A DNA stretch of 64,000 nt, taken from assembly GCA_020628865.1 (NCBI GenBank), contig JAHDEJ010000012.1:1-64000 (forward strand), in the 5' to 3' direction. The stretch comes from Acidimicrobiales bacterium. Lineage in GTDB: Bacteria; Actinomycetota; Acidimicrobiia; Acidimicrobiales; SHLQ01. Both the position numbers and the translations under genes were made by a program. Position 1 is the first letter of the stretch, and each line of letters starts with the position of its first letter. The notes under the pieces were generated by a model. It saw only the letters and a list, made by a program, of their open reading frames with translations. It had not been told where the DNA came from and did no database searches. This document shows, piece after piece, positions 41,600 through 63,957 of the stretch.

Positions 41600-41605
41600 G
41601 TGCCG

Positions 41606-43112: not shown

Positions 43113-43131
43113 CACGCCGCCTTCGTCTGGG

Positions 43132-44631: not shown

Positions 44632-44659
44632 CGGCGACCGGGGGGAGTCGCCGAAGGTG

Positions 44660-45070: not shown

Positions 45071-45125
45071 GTGGGGGTTCCTTTGTGTGAGCCCCATCCG
45101 AATCTGCTTGGGGCGAACGTTGTAC

Positions 45126-45183: not shown

Positions 45184-45244
45184 ACCTTCGTCACATCGTC
45201 GAATTCGGTTGTCGGCCTCGAGCGGCTGTGCGAGCGTGGTTCGC

Positions 45245-45736: not shown

Positions 45737-45761
45737 TCCGGGGGACTCGGGCCGGCTCCGC

Positions 45762-45983: not shown

Positions 45984-46085
45984 GACGATGTCCTCTCGTC
46001 GGGCGCCGATCGCTCGACGCAGCGGGTGATGACGTCATCCTGAACGCCCGGAGGAAAGACCAGCAGGGGCGAAGGTCCCGACTGC

Positions 46086-47453
46086 TCAGTCGGGCTCGCC
46101 GCCGTCGACCCGCACGCAGTGATGCTCGAGCGAGTCGCCGTGGAGCCGCATGCCGAAGTGTCCGCGTCCCAGCGAGAGCTTGTGGGCCAGGGCGTGGATC
46201 GGGCCGAACTGCCGATGGGTGTGCTCGTGGCTCGGGGCGGTCTCGCCGATCGCGGCGCGAAGCATCGACATGCTCGACAGGCCGAGCAACGCGCCGACGG
46301 CGGCGACGGCCGCACCGGTGAGGAAGCTGGCGGGACCTTCGCCGAGTGCATAGAGCGAGCCGGCGGCGATTGGTGCGATCGTGGACGCAATCGCCGTCAC
46401 GCTCGTGTTGATGCCCTGGGCGAGACCCTCTTCTCGCTCGTCGGCTGAACGAGTGAGGACCGACTGCAACGTCGGCAGGATCAGCGCGAAGCCCACGTTG
46501 AGCAGGAACGACACGGCGAGAAACACGGGCACCGATCGAGGCAGGCTGAGCAATGCCAGCGCAATCGGTGAGATGCACAGGCCGAAGACGAGCGTGCCGA
46601 CGTCGCCGAGCGTCCGTTCAAAGAACCGGAGTGTCACCATCTCGTTGAAGATGAGGAAGCCACCTGTCGCGAGGAACATGAGGCCAGTTGACGACGCACT
46701 CAGCCCGAGGCCGTCGACGTACCAGAGGACGGCGACCGTGCTGAAGAGCGACAGCATCACGTTGACGAGAAACCCGATGGAGAAGAGCCGCAGGAGAACC
46801 GGGGCGCCGGTGAGCGTGCGGGCCTTGCCGACGAGGTTCAGCTGGTGGAACGGGTTGGTGTCGAAGGATGCTGCACGGTTCTCGTCCGTCAAGGATTCCG
46901 GGATCGTGAACAGCAGCGCCATGGTCAGCGCCGAGATGGCGGCAGCGACGATCGCGGTGCCGAGAAAACCGATCGAAGACGCACCGGAGTAGGAACCGAG
47001 GCTCGGCCCGACGAGGAGCGCCATGCCTGCGATCGCCCCTTGCAAGGAGAACACCCTTGTGCGCTGGTCGCCCTCGACCACGTCGGCCAGGTAGGCGGCG
47101 GCAACCGATTGGTTGCCGCCCGTGAGGCCGTCGACGATTCTCGACGCGGCGATCACCGCGAGTGCCAGACCGGCGCCATCGATGAAGTACGCGGCACCGA
47201 AGAGCACCCAGGAGAGCAGCGTGCCGAACTGGCTGATGAGCAGCACCGGTCGTCGGCCTCGGTAGTCGGCGTAGCCGCCCAAAATCGGCGCGGCGAAGAA
47301 CTGCGCGGCCGGGTATGCGGCGATCAGCAGCGAGTAGACCACATCGCTGTACCCGAGATCCCGAACAACGAACGGGAGGACGGGAATCAGCAGCATGCCG
47401 CCCATCGCATTCACGAACGTCAGCAGGAGGATGGGGCGTACGGCGGATGGCAT
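46086..47453 (-). CDS. MFS transporter, TetA-like drug efflux type
   Basis: A 455-residue major facilitator with about 12 membrane segments. The first loop motif reads GGYADYRGRRPVLLISQ, and GGNQSVAAAYLADVV resembles the TetA-group motif in segment 5. Substrates are likely drugs or toxic metabolites. The ATG at 47453 is chosen because the first membrane segment starts five residues later. The MetE-like gene lies 41 bases upstream on the same strand. Confidence 0.85.
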   Translation of the reverse strand: MPSAVRPILLLTFVNAMGGMLLIPVLPFVVRDLGYSDVVYSLLIAAYPAAQFFAAPILGGYADYRGRRPVLLISQFGTLLSWVLFGAAYFIDGAGLALAVIAASRIVDGLTGGNQSVAAAYLADVVEGDQRTRVFSLQGAIAGMALLVGPSLGSYSGASSIGFLGTAIVAAAISALTMALLFTIPESLTDENRAASFDTNPFHQLNLVGKARTLTGAPVLLRLFSIGFLVNVMLSLFSTVAVLWYVDGLGLSASSTGLMFLATGGFLIFNEMVTLRFFERTLGDVGTLVFGLCISPIALALLSLPRSVPVFLAVSFLLNVGFALILPTLQSVLTRSADEREEGLAQGINTSVTAIASTIAPIAAGSLYALGEGPASFLTGAAVAAVGALLGLSSMSMLRAAIGETAPSHEHTHRQFGPIHALAHKLSLGRGHFGMRLHGDSLEHHCVRVDGGEPD

Positions 47454-47494
47454 TGGCCGATCGTTGCCGCTCGTGCAGTCGGTGGCAACCCCGA

Positions 47495-48538
47495 TCAGTG
47501 CGCAGCTGCGCTGAGCACCCGGAGCTTCTGCTTGGCGAGGTCCCGGCCGACGAATCCGAGGCCGCAATCGGGGGCGGCGACGAAGCGGTCAGCTGGAAGG
47601 TGCGGCAGGATCGCCTCGATGCGATCCCGAACGTCGCCGACGTCCTCCACCCGGCTCGACGCAATCCGCACCAGCCCGACGATGAGCGTCGACCGCTCGA
47701 ACGCAGCGAACAGTTCGGGTGGGTTGTGTCGGTGCGCGTCCTCGATCGAGATCTCGTCGACCACACCGTCGACCGATGCGGCGAGTTGAAGGTACGAGCC
47801 GGGGTCGGCCTTGGGGTAGTCCGTGTCGTCGAGAAAACGGGGGTAGCCACAGCACATGTGCATCGCCCGGGTGACCTCGTCGGGCACGCCGTCGAAGCAG
47901 GCGCGCAGCGCGTCGATTCCGTACGCCAGCGCCTGGTTGGGCTTCCGGGCGAAGATCGGCTCGTCGATCTGGATGTGGCGACACCCCGCATCGATCAGCG
48001 CATGCACCTCGGCGTTGAGTGCGGCGGCGAGGTCGGCGGCAAGTGCTTCGGGGTCGTCGTAGTGGCAGTCGGCTGTGGTGTCGGTGATCGTCATGGGGCC
48101 GGGCAGGGTCATCTTCACTGGATGATCGCCGGCGGCTGCCTGGGCCACCTGCCAATCCCTGACGAGCGGGTGCTCGCCGGTCGAGCGAACGGGTCCGCGT
48201 ATCGACGGCAGGTCGGACGTGTAGGCGCCGTTGCGCAATACGCGCTGCGTGAGGTTCTCGAAGTCGAAGCCCTCGAAGTGGCGGCACTGATAGTGCACGT
48301 AGTTCTCGCGTCGCACCTCGCCGTCGGTGACGACGTCGATTCCGCAGTCGATCTGATCGGCGATCACTTCTGCGGTCGCGTCGTCGAGAGTCGCCTGTGT
48401 CTCCTCACTCTGCGCCGCCGCCCAGCCGCGCATCACCTTGGCGGTGTAGTCCTCGTCGTCGTGGCCGGTCTGGAACCAGTCGGTCACCGGCACACGCTCT
48501 GGCTTGGGGAACGCGCCGATGCAGGTTGTTGTCAACAT
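47495..48538 (-). CDS. Cobalamin-independent methionine synthase C-terminal-type protein (core MetE-like)
   Basis: A 347-residue protein equal to the catalytic half of MetE. HMCCGY supplies His and Cys, and later Glu and APDCGLGF Cys complete the zinc site that activates the thiol. The N-terminal folate-binding half of MetE is absent. Such core-MetE proteins transfer methyl groups to thiols, with donors such as methylcobalamin or small methylated compounds in studied cases. The ATG at 48538 follows a TAGACC box by six bases. Confidence 0.85.
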   Translation of the reverse strand: MLTTTCIGAFPKPERVPVTDWFQTGHDDEDYTAKVMRGWAAAQSEETQATLDDATAEVIADQIDCGIDVVTDGEVRRENYVHYQCRHFEGFDFENLTQRVLRNGAYTSDLPSIRGPVRSTGEHPLVRDWQVAQAAAGDHPVKMTLPGPMTITDTTADCHYDDPEALAADLAAALNAEVHALIDAGCRHIQIDEPIFARKPNQALAYGIDALRACFDGVPDEVTRAMHMCCGYPRFLDDTDYPKADPGSYLQLAASVDGVVDEISIEDAHRHNPPELFAAFERSTLIVGLVRIASSRVEDVGDVRDRIEAILPHLPADRFVAAPDCGLGFVGRDLAKQKLRVLSAAAH

Positions 48539-48582
48539 GGGCACGGTCTAGCAAAGCGCCCGAGCTGCGTGCGCTCTCGGGG

Positions 48583-49053
48583 TCAGGCGGGGGAGAGGAT
48601 CACCACTGCGGTCTCGGTCGGCCGTCGGGCGGCGTAGCCGTCCAGTCCCTTGTCGATCTCCTGCCAGCGCTTCCACAGTCGGTCCCGCTCTTCGCCCGAT
48701 TCCGCCGCCCGGCCGACGACGGACAGCTCGCCATTCACGGTCGTGAGCGTGGCTTCGGGTTTGGCTTGCAGGTTGAGCCACCACGCCGGTTCGGGCGCAC
48801 CCCAGCCGTTCATGGCCATCGTGACGAGATCGTCGCCGTCCTCGTGGTAGCCGATCATCACGGTGCGTTCGAGGCCGCTGCGTCGGCCAACGGTGGTGAG
48901 CTCGGCCAGGCCGTAGGTGTCGCCTTTGGCCGGGCGCAGTCCGAAGCGGCCACCACTCCAGCGGTAGAGGGCCTTGTGCATCTTCCATGCGAAGCGGATC
49001 ACCCAACGAGGAGGCAGGAATCCGCTCGGTTCGGTCGTCGTCGTTGTGTTCAT
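48583..49053 (-). CDS. Deazaflavin (F420)-dependent nitroreductase/quinone reductase family protein
   Basis: A 156-residue protein of the Ddn/split-barrel family. GLAELTTVGRRSGLERTVM and PAWWLNLQAKPEATLTT match the family motifs (LTTxGRKSG and PaWyhNLxAnP). Members reduce quinones or nitro compounds with F420H2; F420 is common in Actinobacteria. The ATG at 49053 lies seven bases after TAGTGT. It diverges from the Sua5 gene. Confidence 0.87.
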   Translation of the reverse strand: MNTTTTTEPSGFLPPRWVIRFAWKMHKALYRWSGGRFGLRPAKGDTYGLAELTTVGRRSGLERTVMIGYHEDGDDLVTMAMNGWGAPEPAWWLNLQAKPEATLTTVNGELSVVGRAAESGEERDRLWKRWQEIDKGLDGYAARRPTETAVVILSPA

Positions 49054-49060
49054 GGTTCGA

Positions 49061-49066
49061 ACACTA
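49061..49066 (-). promoter_or_regulatory. Leaderless -10 box TAGTGT for the F420-type reductase
   Basis: Minus-strand TAGTGT, seven bases, then the ATG at 49053. Confidence 0.45.
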
Positions 49067-49158
49067 CGGAAGGAGCCGCATCCGGGATATCGCTCTCTTG
49101 GTCATTCCGGCGTCGGCCAAAAGGACGAGGTTCCGGTGGGATCGGATAGAACCAGTAC

Positions 49159-50229
49159 GTGACTTCCGGACCCGCCGAGGTGTTGCCCATCTCGTCCGAC
49201 GCCCCCGAACCCGAGCTCGTCGAACGGGCCGCCGCGCTCCTGCGTACGGGGAAACTGGTGGCGATACCGACGGAAACGGTCTACGGCCTCGGCTGCAACG
49301 CGCTCGACGCCGCTGCGGTCCAGCGCGTGTTCGACGCAAAGGAACGACCGTCGTCCGATCCGCTCATCGCACATGTCGACGGACCGGCGATGTTGGTATC
49401 GGTTGCGGCCACGCCGGTGCCCGAGTCGGCCCGGGTCCTGATGGACGCGTTCTGGCCTGGCCCGCTCACCGTGGTGATTCCCCGCCACCCTGATCTGCCC
49501 GACGCCGTGACCAGCGGCCTCCCCGATGTGGCGGTGCGCTGCCCGGCCCATCCGGTTGCGGCCGCCATCATCTCGGCCGCCGGGGTGCCGGTCGCCGCGC
49601 CGAGTGCCAACAGGTTCAGCCGGGTCAGCCCAACGTCGGCGGCCCACGTGTTGACCGACCTGGCTGATCGCATCGAGATGGTCGTGGACTCGGGGCGGTC
49701 GGTGCACGGTCTCGAATCGACGGTCGTCGCGTTCGATGCCGGCGGCGCGATTGTGCTGCGGCACGGAGCGATCCCGCTCGAGGCGATCCAGGAGCTCGTC
49801 CCGGCACGGGCGTTGGGTGGCGACGCCGACGCCGATCGGGTCAAGGCGTCGCCCGGGCACGACGAACGCCATTATTCGCCCCGCACGGCGACCCTCGCCG
49901 TGGTGCCGGGCGTGCTGGCGGATGCGTCAGCCGAGCAGTTGGCTGCGCTGGCTCGAACCGGCGTCCGCTACGCCGGATATTCGAACCGAGCGCCAGAGCT
50001 GCCCGACGGCTGGGACTTCGAATCACTCGGTTCGATCGACCGAATCGAAACCGTGGCCCACGACCTCTACGACGCGCTCCGCCGCATGGACCGGCCCGAC
50101 GTCGACCTCATCATCCTCGAGCTCACTGGCGCCGACGGCCTCGGCCGCGCCATCGACGACCGTCTCGCCCGCGCCGCCTCCAGCGTCGTGGCTTTGAGCC
50201 CTGGTGAGCTCTCGGATCGGCTCGGGTGA
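49159..50229 (+). CDS. Threonylcarbamoyl-AMP synthase (Sua5 type)
   Basis: A 356-residue enzyme for the first step of t6A tRNA modification, making threonylcarbamoyl-AMP from threonine, bicarbonate and ATP. The YrdC domain (1-215) has LVAIPTETVYGLGCNA, KERPSSDPLIAHV, and VAAPSANRFSRVSPTSAAHV. A C-terminal Sua5 domain follows (SPGHDERHYSPRTATLAVV), which marks the long form. The start is GTG at 49159 with an imperfect TAGAAC box six bases upstream. It is read rightward alone. Confidence 0.93.
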   Translation: MTSGPAEVLPISSDAPEPELVERAAALLRTGKLVAIPTETVYGLGCNALDAAAVQRVFDAKERPSSDPLIAHVDGPAMLVSVAATPVPESARVLMDAFWPGPLTVVIPRHPDLPDAVTSGLPDVAVRCPAHPVAAAIISAAGVPVAAPSANRFSRVSPTSAAHVLTDLADRIEMVVDSGRSVHGLESTVVAFDAGGAIVLRHGAIPLEAIQELVPARALGGDADADRVKASPGHDERHYSPRTATLAVVPGVLADASAEQLAALARTGVRYAGYSNRAPELPDGWDFESLGSIDRIETVAHDLYDALRRMDRPDVDLIILELTGADGLGRAIDDRLARAASSVVALSPGELSDRLG

Positions 50230-50444
50230 CAGGTCGCGGGGACTTCGTCCTACCGACATCGCTGTTGACACGAGTCTCCAAGTGAGCCGCGCCCGCGACG
50301 TGTCGCGCGATGGCGCCCAGGCCGCCGGCGGATGGACAGTCGACAGATGAGCGATTCGGCGTCGGCCAGCGTTGCGGAACTGCTATCGGCGCAGCAACGG
50401 CGCGGCCCTCGATCGAGGCGCCGCAACCGCTGCTGCTGCCACGA
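50230..50444. other. Gene-free stretch, nothing recognised
   Basis: These 215 bases separate the ends of the convergent Sua5 and beta-helix genes. I see no ORF with coding character, no U-run terminator and no repeat. Confidence 0.5.
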
Positions 50445-51590
50445 CTAGTCCGAGCCGCAGATCGATGCGTCGGGCAGACTCGTGGCGCACGAGTTGTTCC
50501 GGCTTCGCACGTTGGCATCTTCCGCAGCCACAAGGATGTCGACTGTGGAATCGGCAATACCGTTGTCGGACACTCGATTGCCAAACAACACCACTGCACC
50601 CGCAGGGGTTCCGACCGCGTCTTCGATCCGGATTCCCCCCGGATTGGCAGTTGGAGTACCGACGACATTGTTCTCGATGAGATTGCGTTTGACGACAGTG
50701 TTTTGCGCGCCACTGATGTTGACGCCGAACCCGCCGGCCACGAATTCAGGGAACCCGAGATCTTCGAACGGTCGACAGGTCAGATCGTTGCCAACGATGG
50801 TGTTGCCGATGACCCGGTTGTTTGTGGAGACCGTTCCGCCTTGTGACGCGTCGCCTGAAACGAAAACCCCGCCGCAGTTCCCGCTGAGTCGGTTTTGCTT
50901 GATCGTGTTGCCGCTGTTGTTGCCATTCCCCAGCACAATCGCAACGCCCGGCACGTCGGTAACGGCGTTTCGGCGAATGACGCCGTCCTCGCTGCCCCTG
51001 ACGGCAATGATGCCCGTGCAGAAGCTGAAGAGGTGATTGCTTCGTTCGACCCGGTTCCTCAGCAACTTGAAGCCGCTGACGTCGGCCGCGAAAACACCGT
51101 CGCACCCCGCTCCGCGAACCGTGTTGCCGGCAATCACGATGTTGCTGCCGGAGAGAACACCGATGGCTGAGCCCGGTGCGTCCTCGATCGTGAACCCGCT
51201 CACCTGGACATCGCGGATCGATCCGCTTCCTATGAGGAGGCCCGTTTCCGCCTCGATCGTGACCTCCGCACTGACGCAGATCGACAGCGGCAGCCCGAGC
51301 TCGCGGCACGGCGTCTCGGCATCCTCGGGGGTGCGGATGATGGTGCCCGGTCGTCCTCGCAACGTGATTCCGTCGCGGTCAATGTGCAGCGCCTCTTCGT
51401 AGATGCCGGGGCGGACGACGATCGTGCTGTACGGCGGAGCGTCATCGAGCGCCGATTGGATCGACTCACCTGCTCGTACGACGATCCTCTGAGGACCGGC
51501 CACAGCGGCGACTGGTTGGAGTGTGGCAAACAGCGCCAACACCAGTGCAATCGCGACCACGGGCGCGAAGGTTCGTTTTGTTGGGGACAT
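50445..51590 (-). CDS. Secreted right-handed beta-helix protein
   Basis: A 381-residue exported protein. The signal peptide is MSPTKRTFAPVVAIALVLAL onward, cut near AVAG. Then come repeats of about 22 residues with stacked N/V/I patterns (GSNIVIAGNTVRGAGCDGV, NRVIGNTIVGND, NTVVKRNLIENNVV), a pectate-lyase-like NosD/parallel beta-helix. Early sequence RAGESIQSALDDAPPYSTI is the usual opening of such folds. The enzyme activity, if any, is unknown. AAAGGA nine bases before the ATG supports the start. Confidence 0.85.
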   Translation of the reverse strand: MSPTKRTFAPVVAIALVLALFATLQPVAAVAGPQRIVVRAGESIQSALDDAPPYSTIVVRPGIYEEALHIDRDGITLRGRPGTIIRTPEDAETPCRELGLPLSICVSAEVTIEAETGLLIGSGSIRDVQVSGFTIEDAPGSAIGVLSGSNIVIAGNTVRGAGCDGVFAADVSGFKLLRNRVERSNHLFSFCTGIIAVRGSEDGVIRRNAVTDVPGVAIVLGNGNNSGNTIKQNRLSGNCGGVFVSGDASQGGTVSTNNRVIGNTIVGNDLTCRPFEDLGFPEFVAGGFGVNISGAQNTVVKRNLIENNVVGTPTANPGGIRIEDAVGTPAGAVVLFGNRVSDNGIADSTVDILVAAEDANVRSRNNSCATSLPDASICGSD

Positions 51591-51666
51591 CGTCAAGATT
51601 CCTTTCGTTGAGGTGAGATGGATAGTCCCCGCACGGTGTTGCAGTTCAGTTGCAACCGATACCGGC

Positions 51667-52344
51667 TTACGTGGAAGGGATGTCCAGGTCGAACTCGAAA
51701 CGGAAATTCGGCGCTGGAAGATCGAGGCCCGGCTGCACGCTCGCATTGAGCCCGGTCTCGATCTCGAGGACCTGGCCCGCAGCGCCGCGATAGATCCCGG
51801 ATCCGCCGGTGACCGCCCGGAGCGAGTCCTGTAGCCCCTCGTTTGTCGCCTCGAGCCCGGCGCTCGTCAGCGTGTCGGGCGGAAAGAGCCGATCCGGACG
51901 GATCAGGCCAAAGATGAACTCCTGGTTGCTGATGATGTGAGGTTCGGGTCGGGTGGCGCTGCTGATGATGTGTCCCCGACACATCCAGTGGCCGATCGCG
52001 CCCTCCGAGGTCGGCACGAAGCCGTCGCCTTGGATGGTTCCCTCCGGATAGATGTAGCCCTCGGTCCAGAACATCGAGCCACGCAAGTCGCTCGGGTCGA
52101 GGTTCGCATCGGGGAGCAACGCCGGAGCCGGAAAGAGACGGAAGGTCTCACCGATTGCGGCGACATCGACCACCAGGCTCTTCGTAGTGGCGCTGGCGCC
52201 GTCCGACACCGCGATGCCGGCGCCGAGGCCGGCGGCCGCACCGACTGCTCCTGCAGTCAGTCCGAGCGCTGCGCGACGGCCGACGCCAGGCTCGCGTGTG
52301 CCTTCATGGTGTTCCAGTCCTTCTGGGCTGTTGGTGGGTGTCAT
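51667..52344 (-). CDS. Tat-exported barrel protein, allene-oxide-cyclase-like
   Basis: A 225-residue exported protein. The N-terminus has a twin-arginine signal (GRRAALGLTAGAVGAAAG). The mature part has beta-barrel features, and AVTGGSGIYRGAAGQVLEIE matches the GGTGxYxgaxG signature of the allene oxide cyclase/dirigent barrel family. That family in bacteria is poorly studied. The ATG at 52344 is chosen because it precedes the signal. It follows the giant regulator gene by eight bases and is probably cotranscribed with it and the beta-helix gene. Confidence 0.7.
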   Translation of the reverse strand: MTPTNSPEGLEHHEGTREPGVGRRAALGLTAGAVGAAAGLGAGIAVSDGASATTKSLVVDVAAIGETFRLFPAPALLPDANLDPSDLRGSMFWTEGYIYPEGTIQGDGFVPTSEGAIGHWMCRGHIISSATRPEPHIISNQEFIFGLIRPDRLFPPDTLTSAGLEATNEGLQDSLRAVTGGSGIYRGAAGQVLEIETGLNASVQPGLDLPAPNFRFEFDLDIPST

Positions 52345-52352
52345 CGTTGCTC

Positions 52353-55300
52353 CTATTCGGTGGTCTCGGGATTGGGGGCAGGCCACTGGTCGCAGGTGGT
52401 GGGTGCAGCGTCGTTGGGAGATCCATAGGCGGCCCATTCGGTTGTCGACAGGTTTCGGCCAGCAGCAGCGCAGGCGAGTTCGACCCAGGTCGCTGTGTCG
52501 AGGTTCCAGATGAGCGCGTCGTCGCCAACGATGGAGGTTGCTGCGGCGCCGTCGGCTGAGACATTGACCGATGCACCGACGTCGCCTGGGAACGCTTCGC
52601 CGATGAGCGTGCCGGACGCGAGATCGAAGAGTCGTGGTCGCGAGTCCACAGATGTGACGACCTGCTCGCCGCTTTGCGGAAACCCGATCTGGTGAAACCC
52701 GGACACACCTTGAGGGGCATCAACGAGCGCTGTGCTCGTCGGCTGAAGACTCTCGGCATCCCGGACGATCACCGTCCCTGTCTGGCCAAACGTGAGCAGC
52801 CATTCTCCGTTAGGGCTGTACGCAACGTGAATCACCTGTCCCGCGCCGCCGGAGAGGGTTCCGATCCGGGACCAAGTGGCTGTTTCCCATACGTGTGAAA
52901 CGCCGTTGTCTGCGGCTGCGGCGAGGTACCGGCCGTCGGGACTGAAAGCGACACTCACGACGTTCGTTTCCGCAGCGCCGTCTTGTGGCACGAAGTCATC
53001 CAGTTCCGTGAGGATCGAGCCCGTTCTACGGTCGACGATTCTCAGGACGGCAGGTCCCGGTTGCCCCATCCCGATGGCAACGAGAGGTTCCGTCGGACTG
53101 ACTGTTCCTGACCATGCGTTGAACGCTTCGGCCAAAAACCCGGTTGGTGCGAGCTCATCCACGGTGAGCCCGATGAGTTCGCCGCCCGCCTCTGTGGTCA
53201 GAGGGCCGTACAGGTCGGGTAGGAGGCGCTCGGTGCGCTCGGTTCTACGTGCCGGCCGCGTTCCAGTGAGATCCCAGAGCGCGGACTCTAATGGTGTTGT
53301 CAGGTCCAACGTGGTGACGAACGAGCCGTCAGCCGACACGAGTGCTTCGAATGGTTCTGACATGTTGATGGAGCGGGCGAGGAGGCGGGAGCCGTCCGTC
53401 GCGAACAGGTCGATGCCTTCGGTGGCAACCGCGATGATCTCGCCGTTGGGAGAAATCGCCACGTCGTAGCCGTTGTTGCGAACTCCACCTTGGATGTCGA
53501 CATTGAGTACGTGTTCGCCGTCGGCCGTCTCGAGTTGAATTTCCCCGAGCGGTAGCCCAAGGCTCACCAGGTCGCCCCCGCCACGGAGTTGGAATCCATC
53601 CAACGCGAGCGGCGCCTGATGCTCGGACACCAACTGTTCGCGCGTCAGCTCGCCGCTGGACGGACGCCACCATTGCCGATAGCTGCCCACCGCCAACTGG
53701 ATCTCGTCAGGGCCCGTCCAGACGAGACCTGACGGACGCCCAAGCGTGCGCGCTGCCCGCGTGATCGAGGGGCGATCGACGATGAGCTCGTCGAGCACTG
53801 CCAGGTGTCCTGCATCGAGCATGCGCACCTTGAAGCCACCAGCTGACGCGATGATCATGCCGGTCGGGTCGAAGGCAAGGCTCCGCACACCGATCGGAAA
53901 CGTGCTCGGTTCGTGTGCGGCAGCCTCAGGAATGTCGAGTTCCTCGGGGAGATCGCTTGGGTCGACCTCAGGATGGGCAGTGAACGGCCCGGCTCTGCGT
54001 TCGCCGTTGTTCGTGTCCCAAACGCTCACCGCGCCCAAGCGATCACCAAGGGCAAGGTCGTGGCCGTTGGGTGCGAAGCTCAACGCCTGGACGATTGCGC
54101 CACTTTCGATCGAGCGACGCAGCTCACCGTCTTGGTCGAACACGTGCACGGTTCTGTCGGCGGTTGCGACGGCCAGGCGCGTTCCGTCGAGGTTTGTTGC
54201 CATTGTCCCGTTGAAGGACAACTCGATCTCCGAAATCCGTTCGGCGGTGCTCACGTCGAAGAAGTCGATGCCGTTGGGGTGGCCTGCAGCGATCGTGTCG
54301 TGCGCGATCCACTCCACTGCGACATAGCTCCGATCGCCACCCAGCGTTCCAAGGAACGGGCCAAGACGGACGAGTACCTGTTGCAGACCGCCAAGGGTCT
54401 CCACGCCGGGCTGTCTTCGGTACGCCTCGAGTGCAAGCAGGAGGGCCGCTGTTCGGTCGATGTCCACGAGCCGCACCGCCTCTGCGGTCAATCGACGCGT
54501 CTCAGCGGAGTTCCGCGCGGCGATGGCCTCTTCTCCTCGTGCTATTGCCGTCGTTTGTGCCCGAATTGCCAACCCGACCGCGGCAAGCGAGATGACGAGC
54601 AAGCTCGCAATAATCACCAATGCTCGCTTCGTCCGTCGATGCTGTCGCTCAGCTTGCAACTGTTCGCGTCGTTGATGGCCGAGGCTCGCGTGGATGAACG
54701 TCCGCTCTTCCGAGTTGAGCAGCCGTGGAGCGGCACGTGCGACCTCGCTCGCTGCGGCGAGGGCCGAGCCCCGAAGGAGCTCGTCGTCTCTTCTCCCACC
54801 TGAATGCCACGCAGTTCTGGACTGACTGATTCGATCCACCGTCCTGATGAAGTCTGCGTCTGACTCGACCCAGCGACGAAGCCTTGGCCATCGCGAGATA
54901 AGTGCCTCATGTGCGAGTGAGATCGTTCCGCCGCCGGCAACCTCATCGAAGTCGAGCACGAGCAGACGGGCGGCGACGAATGCGTCGGCAACCTGACTTG
55001 ACCCGTCGTCGAGTTCGTTCAGGGGTGCGGTTCGTCGGGTTGGGCGGGATTCGTTGAACCTGATCAAGCGTCCGAACAGCGTGCGTGTCGCGTCCTGCTC
55101 GGCGCGACTGAGCGTGTCGTAGACGGTCTCTGCGCGGCGAGCCACCGCTCCTTCCACGCCGCCAAGCTCCTCGAGATCCTGCTCAGAGATCCGTGCGCCA
55201 TCGATCCGATTCGTCAGTTCAGTGAGCGCGAATTCGACCAGCGGAAGTGCACCGGGTTCGCGCAGCCCGGTGTCAACCAGCTCGTGCACGACGGCCGGAT

Positions 55301-56636
55301 CGATGCCCAACCCGACTGCGGTGGCCGGGCCGAGGATCACCTGCTCGAGCTCGCTCCTGTTGAGCGCTGGTAGGGCGATGGCACTCGTTGCGATGACCCG
55401 TCCGAGGAGGGGGTCGCTGAGAGGACGGTCGAACAGGTCGGCTCGGATCGTTGCGAGAACTCTCAGGCGAGATGACGGTCGGGCGAGTTCTTCGGAGAGG
55501 TAGGTGGCGAACGGTTCGAACTCGTCGGGTGTGCTGAGTGTGTAGAGCTCTTCGAGTTGGTCGACGACCAGCATGCAGTCCGTTCGATCGTCGACCGTCG
55601 CCATTCGGCGCTGGAGCGCAGCCCAGGGTTGACGACCGGGGGTCATCACCTCCACACGGGCGTCGTGGTTCTGGCTTCGTCGATAGACGTCCAGGACGCC
55701 GGCCTTCACGACGCTCGACTTGCCGGAGCCGGAGGGTCCCACGATGGTCACCAATCGGGAATCTCGGAGCCGTTCGATGATCGTGTCGGTGAAGGCGTCG
55801 CGGCCGAAGAAGTCGGCTGCGTCGGCGAGGTCGAAGGACTTGAGACCCTTGTATGGGTTTCGCCGCGGCAAGACGAGGTCAGGGTTCGCGTGGTGGACGT
55901 CGGCGACCTCGCCTCGAATGATTCCTGCCTCCAGTGCCGAGAGTTCGGGGCCGGGCTCGAGCCCGGTGTGTTCGGCGAGCTCGGTTCGGTAGCGCTGAAA
56001 CGCCCGGCTCGCCGCTATCGGACCGTGCAGCGCATTCCGGGCCCGTAGGTCGAGGCTGCGGAGGTTCTCGCGCTCTGGATGTCGATCGATGACTGGCCGA
56101 AGCACGTGCAGGGCAGTTTCGGGGTCGCCGCGCTCCAGCGACAGCAGTGCGAGGGAGCTTGCGGCGGCCACATGCGCCTCAAGGAGCCGATTCACCGCAT
56201 GGAGGGCCCACGGTCGGTCCGCCAGATGGCCGTAGGGCTCGCCGGTCCAGCGCACGAGCGCCTGGGTGAGCGCCCGTCGTGCTGCGTCTGGTGTCCCGTC
56301 ATCGGCGAGGGCTTGACCCTGGTGCACGAGCTGCTCGAATTGTTCGGAATCAAGTTCCTCGTCGGCCACCTGAAGTCGGTAGCCGGGACGGACGGAGACG
56401 AGGCGTTCTTCGCCCACGACTCGACGCAACTTGGACACATACGTTTGGGTCGTGCGCTCTGCCCGCTCTGGCTCGGACTCGCCGTCCCATAGGATGTCCA
56501 CGAGTTTGCTCAGCGGAACGATGTCGTTGCGATTCGCCAGTAGAGCGGCGAGCAGCGTGACTTGGCGGGGGCCGCCGATCTTGACGGGTCGGCCGTCCTC
56601 GCTGATCGAGATCTCACCCAAAACACGAAACTGCAC
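52353..56636 (-). CDS. Giant SARP-type regulator: wHTH/BTAD - nSTAND ATPase - membrane segment - WD40
   Basis: A 1427-residue protein. Residues 1-90 are an OmpR-like winged helix (MQFRVLGEISISEDG, TYVSKLRRVVGEERLVS), and 95-240 a BTAD repeat domain, the AfsR/SARP layout. NPYKGLKSFDLADAADFFGR opens an nSTAND-type NTPase with Walker [10 protein letters not shown] (about 299) and Walker B CMLVVDQLEELY. A membrane segment lies at about 672-692. The rest is a WD40-like propeller ending in ACAAAGRNLSTTEWAAY, common to such proteins. It may sense a signal outside and control the downstream exported genes. The start is GTG at 56636. Confidence 0.9.
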   Translation of the reverse strand: MQFRVLGEISISEDGRPVKIGGPRQVTLLAALLANRNDIVPLSKLVDILWDGESEPERAERTTQTYVSKLRRVVGEERLVSVRPGYRLQVADEELDSEQFEQLVHQGQALADDGTPDAARRALTQALVRWTGEPYGHLADRPWALHAVNRLLEAHVAAASSLALLSLERGDPETALHVLRPVIDRHPERENLRSLDLRARNALHGPIAASRAFQRYRTELAEHTGLEPGPELSALEAGIIRGEVADVHHANPDLVLPRRNPYKGLKSFDLADAADFFGRDAFTDTIIERLRDSRLVTIVGPSGSGKSSVVKAGVLDVYRRSQNHDARVEVMTPGRQPWAALQRRMATVDDRTDCMLVVDQLEELYTLSTPDEFEPFATYLSEELARPSSRLRVLATIRADLFDRPLSDPLLGRVIATSAIALPALNRSELEQVILGPATAVGLGIDPAVVHELVDTGLREPGALPLVEFALTELTNRIDGARISEQDLEELGGVEGAVARRAETVYDTLSRAEQDATRTLFGRLIRFNESRPTRRTAPLNELDDGSSQVADAFVAARLLVLDFDEVAGGGTISLAHEALISRWPRLRRWVESDADFIRTVDRISQSRTAWHSGGRRDDELLRGSALAAASEVARAAPRLLNSEERTFIHASLGHQRREQLQAERQHRRTKRALVIIASLLVISLAAVGLAIRAQTTAIARGEEAIAARNSAETRRLTAEAVRLVDIDRTAALLLALEAYRRQPGVETLGGLQQVLVRLGPFLGTLGGDRSYVAVEWIAHDTIAAGHPNGIDFFDVSTAERISEIELSFNGTMATNLDGTRLAVATADRTVHVFDQDGELRRSIESGAIVQALSFAPNGHDLALGDRLGAVSVWDTNNGERRAGPFTAHPEVDPSDLPEELDIPEAAAHEPSTFPIGVRSLAFDPTGMIIASAGGFKVRMLDAGHLAVLDELIVDRPSITRAARTLGRPSGLVWTGPDEIQLAVGSYRQWWRPSSGELTREQLVSEHQAPLALDGFQLRGGGDLVSLGLPLGEIQLETADGEHVLNVDIQGGVRNNGYDVAISPNGEIIAVATEGIDLFATDGSRLLARSINMSEPFEALVSADGSFVTTLDLTTPLESALWDLTGTRPARRTERTERLLPDLYGPLTTEAGGELIGLTVDELAPTGFLAEAFNAWSGTVSPTEPLVAIGMGQPGPAVLRIVDRRTGSILTELDDFVPQDGAAETNVVSVAFSPDGRYLAAAADNGVSHVWETATWSRIGTLSGGAGQVIHVAYSPNGEWLLTFGQTGTVIVRDAESLQPTSTALVDAPQGVSGFHQIGFPQSGEQVVTSVDSRPRLFDLASGTLIGEAFPGDVGASVNVSADGAAATSIVGDDALIWNLDTATWVELACAAAGRNLSTTEWAAYGSPNDAAPTTCDQWPAPNPETTE

Positions 56637-56806
56637 GCCGAGCTCACGCCCCCACCAGTTGCCGCCGGTCTCGTTTTACATCATCGGCGAGTCTGATGAC
56701 GTGGGTCCTCAAGGCGACCATCGTTGGAGTCCTTTCTCGTCGTGGGGAGAATGGACGGTCGATGTTGCAGCAACGTTGCAACCGATCTTCGCAAAGGTGA
56801 GGCGGC

Positions 56807-57574
56807 CTAGCGACTGCGGTGCTCCCATCGTTCAGCGGCGAGGAAGGCTGCGCCGAGCAGTACGAGCCCGACCCCAGTGACAGCCACCGGGGCACTGCTG
56901 CGGCCAGTGAGCGCGAGCTCTTCGACTTCTTCGACTGCGGGTTTCACCTCGACCGGCACCATCGTGGTCGGCGGGCTCACCGCATCGGTGGTCGGAGGGA
57001 GGACGACGACCGTGGTGGGCGGCGTGGTCGCCGGTGGCACGGTGCCGATCGGCCCGCCGATCTGCGGAGGTTCCGTCGTGGCCGGCGGGGCGACGATCGA
57101 CGGGGTGAAGCCGATGCAGTCGACGTTGACCGAGTTCACCCCACCCTCGCGGAGGTGGTGCGCCGAGATAGCAGTTGCGGCGTCCAGCTCGACACCGTCC
57201 ACCGTCATCGTCACCTGCGTCTGGTCGGCGGGAACGTCGGGAGTCGGTGGCGAGCTGTAGCCGTTGTCGAGCGTGAAGTACCACTGTTCCTGGGTCTGCT
57301 CCACCTGGTAGTTGGCAGACGGGTGATTGTCGCTCGCCTCCATCGTGATGTCGTAGACGCCGGCAGGAAGCACGATGGCGAACGGCCCGGCGCTGTCACT
57401 GATGCCGTCGTTGAGCAGGCGCGTGCCGGCGAACCCGAAGCTGTAGTCGCCGCACCCAACCGAGTCGGCCGCGCCGGCGAGGCCGGTCGAGGTGAGTGCG
57501 ACACCGGCGATGATCGTCACGACAGCGACGGCTCGACCGAACGCAGGAATGTGAAGAGTGGTTCGTGGACCCAT
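56807..57574 (-). CDS. Secreted surface protein with an LPxTG-like C-terminus
   Basis: A 255-residue exported protein. The signal peptide (HIPAFGRAVAVVTIIAGVAL) is followed by a domain of about 120 residues with two or three cysteines. A Thr/Pro-rich stalk (ATTEPPQIGG..PPATTPPTTVVVLPP) comes next, then LALTG, a hydrophobic segment and a WEHRSR tail. This matches a sortase sorting signal with LALTG in place of LPxTG. The ATG at 57574 is the start. It lies upstream of the giant regulator, with 170 bases between. Confidence 0.75.
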   Translation of the reverse strand: MGPRTTLHIPAFGRAVAVVTIIAGVALTSTGLAGAADSVGCGDYSFGFAGTRLLNDGISDSAGPFAIVLPAGVYDITMEASDNHPSANYQVEQTQEQWYFTLDNGYSSPPTPDVPADQTQVTMTVDGVELDAATAISAHHLREGGVNSVNVDCIGFTPSIVAPPATTEPPQIGGPIGTVPPATTPPTTVVVLPPTTDAVSPPTTMVPVEVKPAVEEVEELALTGRSSAPVAVTGVGLVLLGAAFLAAERWEHRSR

Positions 57575-57666
57575 GCCGTCATCGTGCTGGACTGCCCTCC
57601 GTGGCAGCAGGGACAAAGGTCCCGACGATGCGTGGCCGCTCCCAAACCCACGTCATCACTGCAGCC

Positions 57667-57706
57667 AGGGGTCTGACCCCCAGATGCGACGAGGGGTCAG
57701 ACCCCT
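57667..57706. terminator. Hairpin of the GGGTCTGACCCC family (copy 3)
   Basis: A perfect 14-bp stem, AGGGGTCTGACCCC with GGGGTCAGACCCCT, and a 12-base loop. It lies seven bases beyond the 3' end of the tRNA remnant. Confidence 0.6.
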
Positions 57707-57713
57707 GATGCTG

Positions 57714-57763
57714 TGGCGCCCCCGGCATGATTCGAACATGCGACGCACGGTTTAGGAAACCGT
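57714..57763 (-). tRNA. 3' half of tRNA-Arg(CCT): attachment-site remnant
   Basis: Read on the minus strand: anticodon arm ACGGT-TTCCTAA-ACCGT (anticodon CCT), a variable loop, a T arm GCATG-TTCGAAT-CATGC, the 3' acceptor strand CGGGGGC, discriminator G and encoded CCA. The D arm and the 5' acceptor strand are not present to the right: sequence beyond 57764 has no GCCCCCG partner. This is what remains when an element integrates into a tRNA gene. The arms ACGGTTT/AAACCGT around AGG would suit a tyrosine recombinase core. Confidence 0.88.
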
Positions 57764-57906
57764 CACTCCGTATCACGGTTTGTTGATATGAAAGGCGAAA
57801 CCCGGGATGAATTCGTATCTATAGCACATCATCATTCCTTCTATACGCATCAAGACACGGAATCATGATCCGTTCGACGCAAAAACGTATCAACGGAAAC
57901 CGACGC
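57764..57906. promoter_or_regulatory. AT-richer end region of the element
   Basis: This region is less GC-rich than its surroundings. It includes a third ACGGTTT (57775-57781), in inverted order with the AAACCGT of the tRNA remnant. It may hold recombinase arm sites. I see no gene in it. Confidence 0.4.
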
Positions 57907-58167
57907 TCACCGCTGGCGGCGTTCGTTGACCTGAAGGCCACCCCAGATGCCGAACCGCTCGGAGATCATCGAGGCATGCATGACGCACCGGCCGCGGACC
58001 GGGCAGCTCTGGCAGATCTTCTTCGCGGTGCGGGAGGACTGGCCTCGTTCGGGGTACCAGAGGTTGACCCACGTTGAGATAGCCATGGTCGGTGGTCGGC
58101 GTGCTGGGTTGCAGCCTCGCGATGGATTCTCCATCCACGTGGCGTCGACGTCGCGGTCCTGATGCAT
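57907..58167 (-). CDS. WhiB-family iron-sulfur regulator (element-borne)
   Basis: An 86-residue WhiB-like protein. CQSCPVRGRC gives the C-x2-C-x5-C trio, FGIWGGL the turn motif, and LWYPERG the usual FFPERG-like segment. The fourth cysteine is in RGCNPARR, 32 residues before CQSC, which is farther than the typical gap of about 14-30. WhiB proteins bind [4Fe-4S] and regulate transcription; phages of Actinobacteria often carry one. The ATG at 58167 comes two bases after the rusA-like stop, so they share a transcript. Confidence 0.85.
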   Translation of the reverse strand: MHQDRDVDATWMENPSRGCNPARRPPTMAISTWVNLWYPERGQSSRTAKKICQSCPVRGRCVMHASMISERFGIWGGLQVNERRQR

Positions 58168-58169: not shown

Positions 58170-58571
58170 TCAGGCGTCGAACGTCCAGATGGACAGCTGG
58201 GTCCGGGGCTGGGTGTCGCGGCGGTGGACTCGGAGGGTGAGCTGCTCGACGAGGTAGTCGTCGGTCCAGATGACCCCGTTGCACGAGTCCAAGACCAATT
58301 TCGCGAGATTGTCTACGTCGTTGCGTCGGGCCGTCTTGGTGAAGAACTCGATGTGCACGTAGAACTTGAGGTCAAGGGGCTCGGACGGCGCAAGGCGCCG
58401 GTCCCGCACATACTGCGCGAAGGCCTTCTCGGCGTCTCGAGTTCGCTTCGGCGTGTAGAGGCTGGCGCGCTTCCCCTGGATCCGGGCCTTGGGTCGGCCC
58501 TTGGGGACGGGGTCGCCAGGAACGACCAGGGACCCGAACTTCGTCATCTCATCACGCGAAAGCATCACCAT
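58170..58571 (-). CDS. RusA-family Holliday junction resolvase
   Basis: A 133-residue nuclease. VVPGDPVPKGRPKARIQG is the RusA N-terminal motif, and RNDVDNLAKLVLDSCNGVIWTDD carries the conserved acidic residues (D..N..K..LD and DD) that bind metal. RusA cuts four-way junctions in phage DNA. The start is uncertain: ATG 58571, 58565 or 58547. It is the first gene of the leftward pair. Confidence 0.88.
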   Translation of the reverse strand: MVMLSRDEMTKFGSLVVPGDPVPKGRPKARIQGKRASLYTPKRTRDAEKAFAQYVRDRRLAPSEPLDLKFYVHIEFFTKTARRNDVDNLAKLVLDSCNGVIWTDDYLVEQLTLRVHRRDTQPRTQLSIWTFDA

Positions 58572-58856: not shown

Positions 58857-59165
58857 ATGACCGCATTCTCAGAGGCCCTCCGCCGAGAGCGGGTTCGCAG
58901 GGGCGAGAACCAGCGCCAGGTGGCTGCACGATTCGAAGTGAGCCAGCCCAGCTACTACCGCTGGGAGAATGGCGAGGCCGTTCCGCGCGACAAGTATCGG
59001 CCGGCAGTGGCTGCGTACCTCGGGCTCGACACGCCGCGGCTGACCAAGCTGCTGTACGAAACCGAGGAGCCCACCACCTACACGGATCTCGTTGAGCGAG
59101 TCGCTGCTCTCGAGCGTGACATGGAGGACGTGCGCGAGCAGCTGCGTGCGCAGATGTCCTCCTGA
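58857..59165 (+). CDS. XRE-family regulator with a coiled-coil tail (repressor candidate)
   Basis: A 102-residue protein. The helix-turn-helix spans about 6-60 (EALRRERVRRGENQRQVAARF, SQPSYYRWENGEAVPRDKY). The last 35 residues form an acidic coiled coil (LVERVAALERDMEDVREQL). ATG at 58857 with AGGAG 11 bases upstream and a strong promoter support the start. Its place beside a divergent palindrome suggests control of the element's early genes. Confidence 0.85.
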   Translation: MTAFSEALRRERVRRGENQRQVAARFEVSQPSYYRWENGEAVPRDKYRPAVAAYLGLDTPRLTKLLYETEEPTTYTDLVERVAALERDMEDVREQLRAQMSS

Positions 59166-59428: not shown

Positions 59429-60349
59429 GTGAGTGATCGAGGGCGAAGCTTCGTCACGCAGCGCAGCCCGTATCAAGGCGCCACGTTCTTCGTGCACTAC
59501 TTCCTCGGCGACCTGGAGAACGAGGACAACGGCCATGTGCTCTGGCTGTCGATGGCCCGGCTTGCCGCCCGACTCCGGCTCCACGAGAACACGGTCTACA
59601 AGGCGGTCCAGCAGATGGTCGACGACGGGTTCCTGACCCGACTCGACGACGACACGAGCCGGCAGCGCGGCAAGCCTCGCCGATACCGGTTCGAGTATCC
59701 GCAGGTGCCGGTGGCGTTCAGCCCTGATCGGGTCGCCTCACCCAGCGAGAAAGTGGGTGGCACCCAGTCAGAGAGTGGTTCGTCACCCAGTCAGAGAGTG
59801 GGTGGCACCCAGCGAGAGAGTGGACAAACAGAAAACGAACCGAACGGTGTAACAGAACAGGGACCTGAAGACTCACATACGTCGAGTTCGACTTCGTCGA
59901 AACCCGACCCGTCGAGGTCCGATGAGGTCAAGGAGGTCGTGAACTACTGGCGGCTCGCCCTGCACCCTCGGGCGAAGTGGTCGGACAAGCGGGCTCGCAA
60001 GGTCGCTGCCCGATTGAAGGAGGGGTACTCGGTCGCTGACCTGAAGCAGGCCGTCGAAGGGGCGGTCGCGAATGCGCATGTGTCGGAGAAGGGCGAGCGG
60101 TACGACGATCTCGAGCTGATCTGCCGCGACGCCACCAAGGTCGACCTGTTCATGTCGAGAGCGGTGCTGCCCGAACCGAAGCTGACCGGCACGGCGCTGC
60201 TGAAATCGATCGCTGCTGGCGCCGACATGCCAACACCCGAAGCGGTGGGCGTCGACCTTGAAGTGGTCGGCGCGAACATCGACGAGTTCCTTTCCCTGAA
60301 CCCGCCGGCCCCGCAGGCCGACCTCGACGGCATCCCGGACATTCGCTGA
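59429..60349 (+). CDS. Replication initiator-like protein (lambda O-type role) with a wHTH
   Basis: A 306-residue protein. Residues 25-90 form a winged helix (WLSMARLAARLRLHENTVYKAV as two parts, GFLTRLDD, RRYRFEY). A repetitive linker (about 104-135; SPSQRVGGTQRESG-type units) is coded by the iterons. The C-terminal part (NYWRLALHPRAKWSDKRARK, RYDDLELICRD) resembles the phage replisome-organiser C-terminal domain. By position and build it is the initiator. The start is GTG at 59429; the frame is open to 59267. The helicase-loader-like gene overlaps its last base. Confidence 0.75.
   Translation: MSDRGRSFVTQRSPYQGATFFVHYFLGDLENEDNGHVLWLSMARLAARLRLHENTVYKAVQQMVDDGFLTRLDDDTSRQRGKPRRYRFEYPQVPVAFSPDRVASPSEKVGGTQSESGSSPSQRVGGTQRESGQTENEPNGVTEQGPEDSHTSSSTSSKPDPSRSDEVKEVVNYWRLALHPRAKWSDKRARKVAARLKEGYSVADLKQAVEGAVANAHVSEKGERYDDLELICRDATKVDLFMSRAVLPEPKLTGTALLKSIAAGADMPTPEAVGVDLEVVGANIDEFLSLNPPAPQADLDGIPDIR
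59739..59823. repeat. Four 18-bp iterons inside the initiator gene: candidate replication origin
   Basis: The consensus is CACCCAGYSAGARAGTGG, at 59739, 59761, 59784 and 59806 (spacing 22, 23, 22). Copies 1 and 3 extend to a full inverted repeat, CACCCA-N9-TGGGTG; copies 2 and 4 lose the right arm. An A-rich run follows at 59824-59880. Position inside the initiator gene, number, size, symmetry and adjacent A-rich DNA follow the lambda origin plan. Confidence 0.75.
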
Positions 60350-61497
60350 TGGACCGCACCGATGTCGCCAACGTCTTGATCCCGCTGTCGGAGAACTACG
60401 GGAACCGGTTCGAGCTCTCCCATGAGCAGGTGCAGCTGTGGGCGACGGTCCTCGCCCCGTTCCCGGTCGATCTGGTCGAGCGGGCCGTCTACCGGCATCT
60501 CTACACCAGCCCGCATCCGCCGACGATCTCGGACATGCGCCTGCACCTGGCCGGCGAAGCGGGCGTGCTCCCGCCGTCGGCCGCGGATGCGCTCGATTCG
60601 ATCCGCCGCGGAGTCGCGTTGCATCCCGCGGTGGCGCGAGCGAAGCAGGCGGTGGGCACCGACTTCGATTGGCGCCAGGGTGACTGGTCGGTCCTGTCGG
60701 GCCTGTTCATGAAGGCGTACCGCGGGTCGGAGGAGGCCTTGCATGACGAAGTACTTCTCGATGACACCGCGATCTTGAACGGGTGGGCCCGGGAACTCGA
60801 AGCGGAACGGCGGCCGCAGCTCGAGGCCGGCCCGCAGCCGCTCGCCGAGGTGGCCACGATCTCTGAAGAGTTCGACGAGGCATGGTCTGATGAGGACTCG
60901 GCTGTGCATCGGCAAGTGTTCGCCGAGATCGTCCCGTCGGTGCTCGGCAAGAACCGGACAATGTCGCAGTGGCAGGTCGAGCTCGCTGAGCGTGCTGCTG
61001 ATCCGCAGGCGTTCCGGGAGCGGTTGGCTGGCACGATCGCCTCGATCGAGGAGGCGGTGGCGGTGCGGCTCGATGAGCTGCGCGAGGGTCAGCCGCCGCG
61101 GGTTCCGCCTCGTCCGGATCCGTCCCCGCGGCAGGCCCGCTATCTGGTGCAGGCGTCGTGGCGAGAGATCATCCGCGGTGGCCTGATGATCGAGAAGGCC
61201 ACCAAGGAGTCCCGGTTCATGTCCTATGACGCGGCGATCGAGCGGGCGGTGCAGGTGGTGCGGGAGAACTCGCGGGACCCGGTGCTCATCGACTTGCAGG
61301 CCACCGTGTCGGAGCAGCGCATGGAGGTCGTGCCCGGCGAACGCAAGAAGGATGAGCCTGAGCTGCGGCCGGTCGGCGTGAAGAACCTGGTGTGCACCGT
61401 CTACCCCGACGGCATCAGCCAGGCCGTCCCGTATGCGCAGCTGGTCCCGCTGCCACCGGTGCCGATGCAGCTGTCCGAGGAAGAACTCGACTTCTGA
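60349..61497 (+). CDS. Phage helicase-loader-like protein (lambda P-type role)
   Basis: A 382-residue protein. The first 65 residues (IPLSENYGNRFELSHEQVQLW, LAPFPVDLVERAVYRHLYTS, HPPTISDMR) follow the pattern of phage replicative-helicase loader/inhibitor domains: a W in a helix, then PPTI. The rest is charged and helical, with a central stretch of unknown type and a Pro-rich end. The ATG at 60349 overlaps the initiator stop, so they are coupled. Together they look like an O/P replication pair. Helicase binding is inferred. Confidence 0.65.
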   Translation: MDRTDVANVLIPLSENYGNRFELSHEQVQLWATVLAPFPVDLVERAVYRHLYTSPHPPTISDMRLHLAGEAGVLPPSAADALDSIRRGVALHPAVARAKQAVGTDFDWRQGDWSVLSGLFMKAYRGSEEALHDEVLLDDTAILNGWARELEAERRPQLEAGPQPLAEVATISEEFDEAWSDEDSAVHRQVFAEIVPSVLGKNRTMSQWQVELAERAADPQAFRERLAGTIASIEEAVAVRLDELREGQPPRVPPRPDPSPRQARYLVQASWREIIRGGLMIEKATKESRFMSYDAAIERAVQVVRENSRDPVLIDLQATVSEQRMEVVPGERKKDEPELRPVGVKNLVCTVYPDGISQAVPYAQLVPLPPVPMQLSEEELDF

Positions 61498-62549: not shown

Positions 62550-63046
62550 GCGTCGACCCGGTCGGCCTGATCGAGCTGTCGCGCCGCCGGCAGGTCGCCA
62601 AGGCCACCGCGCACGAGTGGTTCCGCAACCATCGGCTCCCTGAGCCGACGTATCCGTCGGTGAACGACCAGCCCGCCTGGGAATGGGCTGTGCTGGCGCC
62701 GCTGTTCGACGACGACGCTCCGGTCCCGACCGAGATCGAAACGTGCGAACCGTACGGGATCGTCGAGACCGCAGCCTTGTTCGGCCTGAAGACCCGGACC
62801 GTGCACACCTGGAAGACGGCCCGCAAGATCATGCCGCCATGCGACCACGATTCGGTCGCTGGCACCGGCGCATGGGAGCTTGACACGCTCTTCGAGTTCG
62901 CCAACAAGCACGGCCGCATCTGGATGCTGCCTGAGTGGGCCCGCAAACGGATGCTGGCCGAGCACTACAACCACCATCGCCGCCTGTCCGCCGATTTCCG
63001 TGAAGAAGCCGAGACCGGTGTGCGCAGTGTGAGGCGCAGGAAATGA
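62546..63046 (+). CDS. Double helix-turn-helix DNA-binding protein
   Basis: A 166-residue protein. Two MerR/AlpA-type helix-turn-helix units appear: LIELSRRRQVAKATAHEWF (about 8-27) and GIVETAALFGLKTRTVHTW (about 72-91), each followed by a similar wing. The tail is rich in Arg and Lys. It may be an excisionase or a terminase small-subunit-like protein; the sequence does not decide. The GTG overlaps the upstream stop, and its own stop overlaps the ParB-like start by four bases. Confidence 0.65.
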   Translation: MSVDPVGLIELSRRRQVAKATAHEWFRNHRLPEPTYPSVNDQPAWEWAVLAPLFDDDAPVPTEIETCEPYGIVETAALFGLKTRTVHTWKTARKIMPPCDHDSVAGTGAWELDTLFEFANKHGRIWMLPEWARKRMLAEHYNHHRRLSADFREEAETGVRSVRRRK

Positions 63047-63957
63047 GCGACGACATCGCACGCCTCGCCGTCCACCAGATTGCGCCCGGCGACAACGACC
63101 GCACCGAATTCAAGCAGGGCGACATCGACAACCTCGCTGCGTCGATGGCTCGTGTCGGCCTCATCCAACCGATCTCGGTGTTCCCGCTCGCTGAGGTGTC
63201 GACGCTGAACGACACGGGCGTCCGGTTCCGGCTGATCGCCGGTGAGCGCCGTTGGCGGGCCGCCTGCCAGCTCAAGTGGGACTACATCTCGGCTCGGGTC
63301 GTGAACGCCCCGGACGAGAAGGCCGCCGAAATGATGCTGGCCGAGAACCTGCTGCGCGTTGAGCTGAACCCGATCGACGAAGCGGTCGCCTACAAGTCGC
63401 GCCTCGACTCGGGCCTCGACGCCTCCGAGCTGTCCGCCGCGATCGGCAAGCCGGTCACCCAGATCCGGCGGATGACGTCGCTGCTCGACCTCGACGACAA
63501 GATCCGCCATCTGGTGCGGACCGGTCAGATGCCGGTCGGGATCGGTGTGCTCATGGCGCCCCTCGACCGGAACCGGCAGCACATCGCGTTCGCTGCGTGG
63601 CAGTCCAAGACCGACGGCATGCGCCACTCGGCAATGAAGGCGTTGTGCGCGCATCTGCTGATGGAGCAGAACCAGGAGTCGCTGCTCGACGCAGACGACT
63701 TCTTGCAGAACGAAGACGCGCTCGATGACCTGATCGAGTCCGCTGAGGCCGTCCGCAAGCTTCACTCGTCCGACCTGGTCTGGCTGGTCGACGACCTCGC
63801 TTCGATCATCGTCCACGAGTCCGAAACGCAGGGCCTGTCCATGGAGTCGCTGTGGCTGTGGGAGCTGGCCCGTCCGCTCGTTGATCGCATGACCGAACAG
63901 CGGGCCGGTGCGCTCGCAAGAAAGCAAGGAGGCGCCCGGTATGGCCGGACCGAATGA
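63043..63957 (+). CDS. ParB/Spo0J-family partition-like protein
   Basis: A 304-residue protein. The N-terminal ParB domain (1-120) has the CTP-fold motifs RLIAGERRWRAAC and MLAENLLRVELNPIDEA. A helix-turn-helix follows (LDASELSAAIGKPVTQIRRM), then a helical C-terminal part. It may partition an episomal form of the element, or regulate genes from ParB-like sites; no parS or ParA gene is seen. The ATG at 63043 overlaps the previous stop. Confidence 0.85.
   Translation: MSDDIARLAVHQIAPGDNDRTEFKQGDIDNLAASMARVGLIQPISVFPLAEVSTLNDTGVRFRLIAGERRWRAACQLKWDYISARVVNAPDEKAAEMMLAENLLRVELNPIDEAVAYKSRLDSGLDASELSAAIGKPVTQIRRMTSLLDLDDKIRHLVRTGQMPVGIGVLMAPLDRNRQHIAFAAWQSKTDGMRHSAMKALCAHLLMEQNQESLLDADDFLQNEDALDDLIESAEAVRKLHSSDLVWLVDDLASIIVHESETQGLSMESLWLWELARPLVDRMTEQRAGALARKQGGARYGRTE

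Follow-up and report, generated by a model that had tools for sequence, protein, structure and literature searches.

What becomes of a host tRNA gene when a prophage cuts it in the anticodon arm and no complete copy is rebuilt at either edge? In classical tRNA-rebuilding prophages, a tyrosine integrase acts at a tRNA gene across a core of 30-45 bp, the phage attachment site (attP) brings the 3' half of the gene, and a complete tRNA stands at one junction with a 3' tRNA fragment at one edge. A second mode, tRNA-dependent lysogeny, has been described for the phages Fionnbharth, LeBron, Gaia and OneUp (Guerrero-Bustamante and Hatfull, 2024; PMC10865867). In the published cases the cores are 8-17 bp long, no tRNA is reconstructed, and a cognate phage tRNA is needed for lysogeny (PMC10865867). 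They involve the isotypes Lys-TTT, Ile2-CAT and Leu-CAA, all in phages of cultured Mycobacterium and Gordonia hosts, and the authors of the description asked how widespread tRNA-dependent lysogeny is (PMC10865867).

In this study, we have explored this question in a bacterium that is most likely an uncultured member of the Acidimicrobiales. The window, that is, the whole stretch of 64,000 nucleotides analysed, covers positions 1 to 64,000 of contig C73 (127,442 bp) of genome G000, a draft of 5.36 Mb in 113 contigs that is 95.9% complete, with an estimated contamination of 3%. Based on both junctions and on the gene content between them, we consider it probable (roughly 0.85) that a prophage of at least 101 kb split the host tRNA-Arg(CCT) gene, rebuilt none, and replaces the gene with a tRNA of its own, on which the lysogen would depend.

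The right junction

The minus-strand segment 57714..57762 represents nt 28-76 of the host tRNA-Arg(CCT). Read from 57762 to 57714, it comprises the anticodon arm (lacking only the first base of its 5' strand), the variable loop, the T arm, the 3' acceptor strand, the discriminator and CCA. All 49 nt match the 3' part of an intact tRNA-Arg(CCT) gene in a genome of the same genus (G001, contig C7; 100% identity, E = 2e-19, far above chance). No 5' half adjoins the fragment, and neither ARAGORN nor the Rfam tRNA model called a tRNA gene at this position or elsewhere on the 127-kb contig. The initial annotation had proposed that a tRNA-Arg(CCT) without a 5' half marks an integrated element and that the genes to its right are of phage or plasmid character. 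Our results bear out both proposals: the chromosomal 3' half starts at 57714, and phage genes run rightward throughout to the contig end. The segment had been drawn one base too long, to 57763; the junction lies at 57762/57763 and base 57763 is already phage. The "symmetrical core" ACGGTTT-AGG-AAACCGT proved to be an ordinary anticodon stem-loop, and a third ACGGTTT, which had also been pointed out, does exist at 57775-57781, a copy for which we found no role.

To the left, positions 1..57713, which adjoin the 3' end of the broken gene, are assigned to the host chromosome on the basis of Pfam matches to Sua5, a wax-ester synthase and others, and by extension for the parts that lie beyond the tested genes. 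The interval 41784-45070 is syntenic with the same-genus genome G003, in which the wax-ester synthase has an orthologue, and one left-flank protein has 99% identity to a protein from the uncultured Acidimicrobiales MAG L2_Bin_Bin_149_1 (CALBVR01) and about 70% identity to counterparts elsewhere in the order. Pfam finds BTAD, nSTAND1 NTPase and WD40 domains in a 1427-aa protein encoded at 52353-56636 (minus strand), two genes from the junction. A palindromic GGGGTCAGACCCC-type repeat at 57666-57708 adjoins the tRNA fragment, and similar copies occur on C81, C84 and C90.

The other junction

When the whole genome was searched for the missing 5' half, a single exact match was obtained, at C109:43912. 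The segment C109:43912-43949 is nt 1-38 of tRNA-Arg(CCT); it reads GCCCCCGTAGCTCAGGGGATAGAGCGTCGGTTTCCTAA and gives way to unrelated sequence after CCTAA. Together, the two pieces (nt 1-38 and nt 28-76) make up exactly the 76-nt gene of a relative, with an overlap of 11 nt, CGGTTTCCTAA, which is the core common to both junctions (57752..57762, minus strand, in the window and C109:43939-43949). As both junctions hold parts of the gene, attB lies within the host tRNA-Arg(CCT) gene. An intact tRNA-Arg(CCT) flanked by the same 40-50 bases had been predicted for the far end; in its place we found this bare 5' half, with 11 bp in common, and no intact copy occurs further right on C73 up to the contig end. 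The accompanying prediction, a tyrosine integrase near either end, held for the far end, on C109, and failed for C73, where no integrase gene was found. The integrase gene (C109:44143-45420; Pfam PF00589, E = 7e-13) starts about 0.2 kb from the core.

No rebuilt tRNA was called at either prophage edge by ARAGORN or Rfam, and no tRNA with the same 3' half as the window fragment was found elsewhere in the assembly. The locus thus lacks the classical signature of an attP that brings the 3' half and leaves a complete tRNA at one junction. As far as the sequence of the two junctions tells, the tRNA gene is cut in the anticodon arm, with an 11-bp core, and is rebuilt at neither end. We also weighed a group I intron in the anticodon loop as the origin of the split, but rejected it since both breaks are followed by phage genes.

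Beyond the core, the two contigs have in common a 13-bp direct repeat, AACGGATCATGAT, which is a candidate arm-type integrase site. It is found at 57862..57874 (minus strand) in the window and, across the core, at C109:44054-44066. Measured from the core to its start, the distance is 112 bp on C73 and 105 bp on C109, a spacing in keeping with arm-type integrase sites, and a repeat as long as 13 bp was seen in 7 of 2000 shuffles.

Extent and gene content of the prophage

From 57763 to the end of the window (64000), and on to the end of C73 at 127,442, the contig carries phage genes throughout, and these 69.7 kb are tailed-phage DNA. They encode WhiB, RusA, a repressor-like HTH protein, a replication initiator, several ParB-like proteins, a DNA methyltransferase, terminase, portal and the major head protein. 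Within the window we identified, in this order, a WhiB-like regulator (57907..58086, minus strand; PHROGs, E = 8e-15), a RusA-like Holliday junction resolvase (58170..58547, minus strand, from a predicted start in a frame open to 58571; PHROGs, and Pfam RusA with E = 7e-20), the repressor-like HTH protein (58857..59165, plus strand; PHROGs), the replication initiation protein (59492..60349, plus strand; PHROGs, E = 7e-19), a helicase-loader-like protein (60349..61497, plus strand; PHROGs, E = 1e-7 over residues 1-64) and a ParB-like protein (63043..63957, plus strand; PHROGs, E = 6e-31). Further along, the gene for the terminase large subunit (C73:94595-97360) contains a LAGLIDADG homing endonuclease domain, which is probably an intein.

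On C109, phage DNA occupies 43,950-75,279, up to the contig end, and comprises the genes for the integrase, a trypsin-like protein, SSB, RecT and tape measure, together with further small genes on one strand. The trypsin-like protein (C109:45952-47397, minus strand) is encoded between the integrase and the phage tRNA described below; it has a weak Pfam match and an apparent signal sequence, and is possibly lysogenic cargo. The phage parts of C73 and C109 have no protein homologues in common, and their gene sets are complementary. The ends of the two contigs do not overlap and leave a gap between them, and the figure of at least 101 kb is the sum over these two non-overlapping contigs. A viral collection yielded no relatives of the portal, the head protein, the integrase or the attachment site.

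A phage-borne tRNA with the anticodon of the broken gene

Among the 44 tRNA genes of the genome (Rfam), only one has the anticodon CCT. It lies at C109:47547-47621, 3.6 kb inside the junction, and its score is normal (64.5 bits, Rfam tRNA). Compared with the broken gene type, it has 17 differing positions and one gap, and the sequences closest to it, with up to 89% identity, come from other families of the order and are likewise tRNA-Arg(CCT) genes. The assembly contains no other tRNA-Arg(CCT); this draft is incomplete and a few other anticodons are also missing, for example Leu-CAA and Gly-CCC, so a host copy that went unassembled is possible. A tRNA-Leu called by ARAGORN in the prophage part of C109 (about 69.3 kb) is absent from the Rfam list and was treated as spurious.

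We propose that the tyrosine integrase of C109 joined attP to the host tRNA-Arg(CCT) gene by recombination at the 11-bp core, within the anticodon arm. The tRNA would be rebuilt at neither junction because attP would match it only in this core, and two dead halves would remain, one on C109 and one in the window. The phage tRNA-Arg(CCT) would take over the reading of AGG in place of the lost gene, and the lysogen would therefore come to depend on it. This scheme supposes that the C109 integrase is the one that performed the integration, and that the phage tRNA is not only expressed but also charged and required by the host; what speaks for the scheme, as read from the assembly, is the split itself, the short core, the lack of a rebuilt tRNA, the integrase adjoining the junction and a phage-borne tRNA with the same anticodon.

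It could also be that the split and the phage tRNA have nothing to do with each other. The host tRNA-Arg(CCT) would then be dispensable, owing to wobble reading by tRNA-Arg(TCT), and the phage tRNA would serve the phage's own AGG codons in lytic growth or counter tRNA-cutting defences. A tRNA-Arg(TCT) that could read AGG by wobble is present at C106. Furthermore, the phage genes contain AGG at about double the frequency of the host genes (59 of 28,572 codons versus 23 of 21,726, or about 2.1 versus 1.1 per 1000), so that a role in translation may be an additional, or even the actual, reason why the phage carries this tRNA. We nevertheless judge this unlikely: AGG is rare in phage and host alike, the one well-supported tRNA of the phage has, among about 40 anticodons in the genome, that of the very gene that was broken, and it is placed near the integrase, as in the described cases (PMC10865867). 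Moreover, a translation role and a replacement role are not mutually exclusive.

A sister prophage as internal control

A further large prophage of this lineage resides in the same genome; it is integrated in tRNA-Arg(CCG) and occupies C51:1-63838 and C90 up to about 26,680. Its major head protein is 60% identical to that of the Arg-CCT prophage. C51 holds the head and replication genes and the integrase, and C90 holds SSB, a RecT-like protein and other relatives of C109 genes. Its junctions share 42 nt and tRNA-Arg(CCG) is complete at C51:63839-63913, which is the classical rebuilding arrangement. In addition, ARAGORN called a tRNA-Pro(TGG) inside this prophage (C51:52597-52672, minus strand) that is absent from the Rfam list.

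The sister bears on two further readings of the Arg-CCT locus. Under ordinary tRNA-site integration, the entire 3' half would come with attP, so that the far junction would have a restored, intact tRNA-Arg(CCT); such elements usually integrate in this way, and the sister does so at its own target. For the Arg-CCT prophage this reading is very improbable, being contradicted by the 5' half on C109, which does not continue as a tRNA, and by the absence of a second copy of the window's 3' half from the assembly. We give hardly any credence to an assembly or binning artefact, in which C109 and C73 would not be two ends of one prophage or would come from different strains: the draft is indeed fragmented, with contig ends that do not overlap and some estimated contamination, but the halves are exactly complementary with their 11-bp overlap, the arm repeat is common to both contigs, the gene modules are complementary, and the sister is split over two contigs likewise. 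This like division of the sister between C51 and C90 independently supports C73 and C109 as two ends of one phage.

The sister integrase is 32% identical to that of C109 and is found across the attachment site from where the latter lies, beside RusA and WhiB; it was the only relative of the C109 integrase to emerge when the genomes of 197 relatives were searched. A tentative explanation, to which we give slightly less than even odds, is that one phage lineage switched its mode of lysogeny between mending (42-nt core, Arg-CCG) and replacing (11-bp core, Arg-CCT and a tRNA of its own), with exchange of an integrase-attP module that placed the integrase across attP. If this is true, tRNA-dependent lysogeny would be easily gained and lost, and would be widespread beyond the phages of Mycobacterium and Gordonia.

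Comparison with known systems

The Arg-CCT prophage displays those features of tRNA-dependent lysogeny that can be recognised in DNA, namely a tyrosine integrase, an attB inside a host tRNA gene, a short core (11 bp here), no rebuilt tRNA and a phage-borne tRNA with the anticodon of the broken gene. It differs from the published cases in its isotype, Arg-CCT, which is absent from the published table, in its Acidimicrobiales host, in its size of at least 101 kb and in the kind of evidence, which here is genomic. With classical tRNA-rebuilding prophages it has in common the tyrosine integrase at a tRNA gene and the 3' tRNA fragment at one edge; unlike them, it has a core of 11 bp and no rebuilt tRNA, whereas the sister, with 42 nt and a complete tRNA, conforms to them. 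Prophages that replace a tRNA gene, Lj965 of Lactobacillus johnsonii and others of Sinorhizobium meliloti, are mentioned in two papers (PMC10865867, PMC11476347), where an isoacceptor tRNA is reported to substitute for the interrupted host gene, as we propose here; these are other phages in other phyla, and our comparison extends to what those papers relate.

Our findings contribute an example from a prophage, in an uncultured order of actinobacteria and at a new tRNA isotype. The sister, which mends its own target, allows a direct comparison of both modes in one genome. The locus also suggests a simple route for genome searches: one would look for prophages that have half of a tRNA gene at one edge and lack an intact copy at the opposite one.

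The site in related genomes

No empty site was found in genomes of the same genus, in which the left-flank protein has no close homologue. The contig of G001 that carries tRNA-Arg(CCT) is only 3.8 kb long and has no flank in common with the prophage site. G003, which has the wax-ester synthase region and an intact tRNA on one contig, was considered as an empty site and set aside, the tRNA being oppositely oriented and the comparison therefore not clean.

Scanning 397 genomes for a 5' half that does not continue gave three more instances in the order (G244:C107:14199, G118:C26:296 and G063:C319:652), in which the break comes right after CCTAA. In two of the three, no more than about 0.4 kb separates the break from the contig end; the third contig, without a related integrase, belongs to a genome (G063) that also has an intact copy; we regard these three broken 5' halves as leads.

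Lastly, tRNA-Arg(CCT) is a recurrent integration target in the order, as several genomes hold extra 3' fragments that start at the anticodon loop (G019:C186:17103-47774, and also G041:C2, G046:C38, G063:C629 and G095:C14). In G019, four copies of the site lie on one contig, which marks an integration hot spot, perhaps with elements in tandem.
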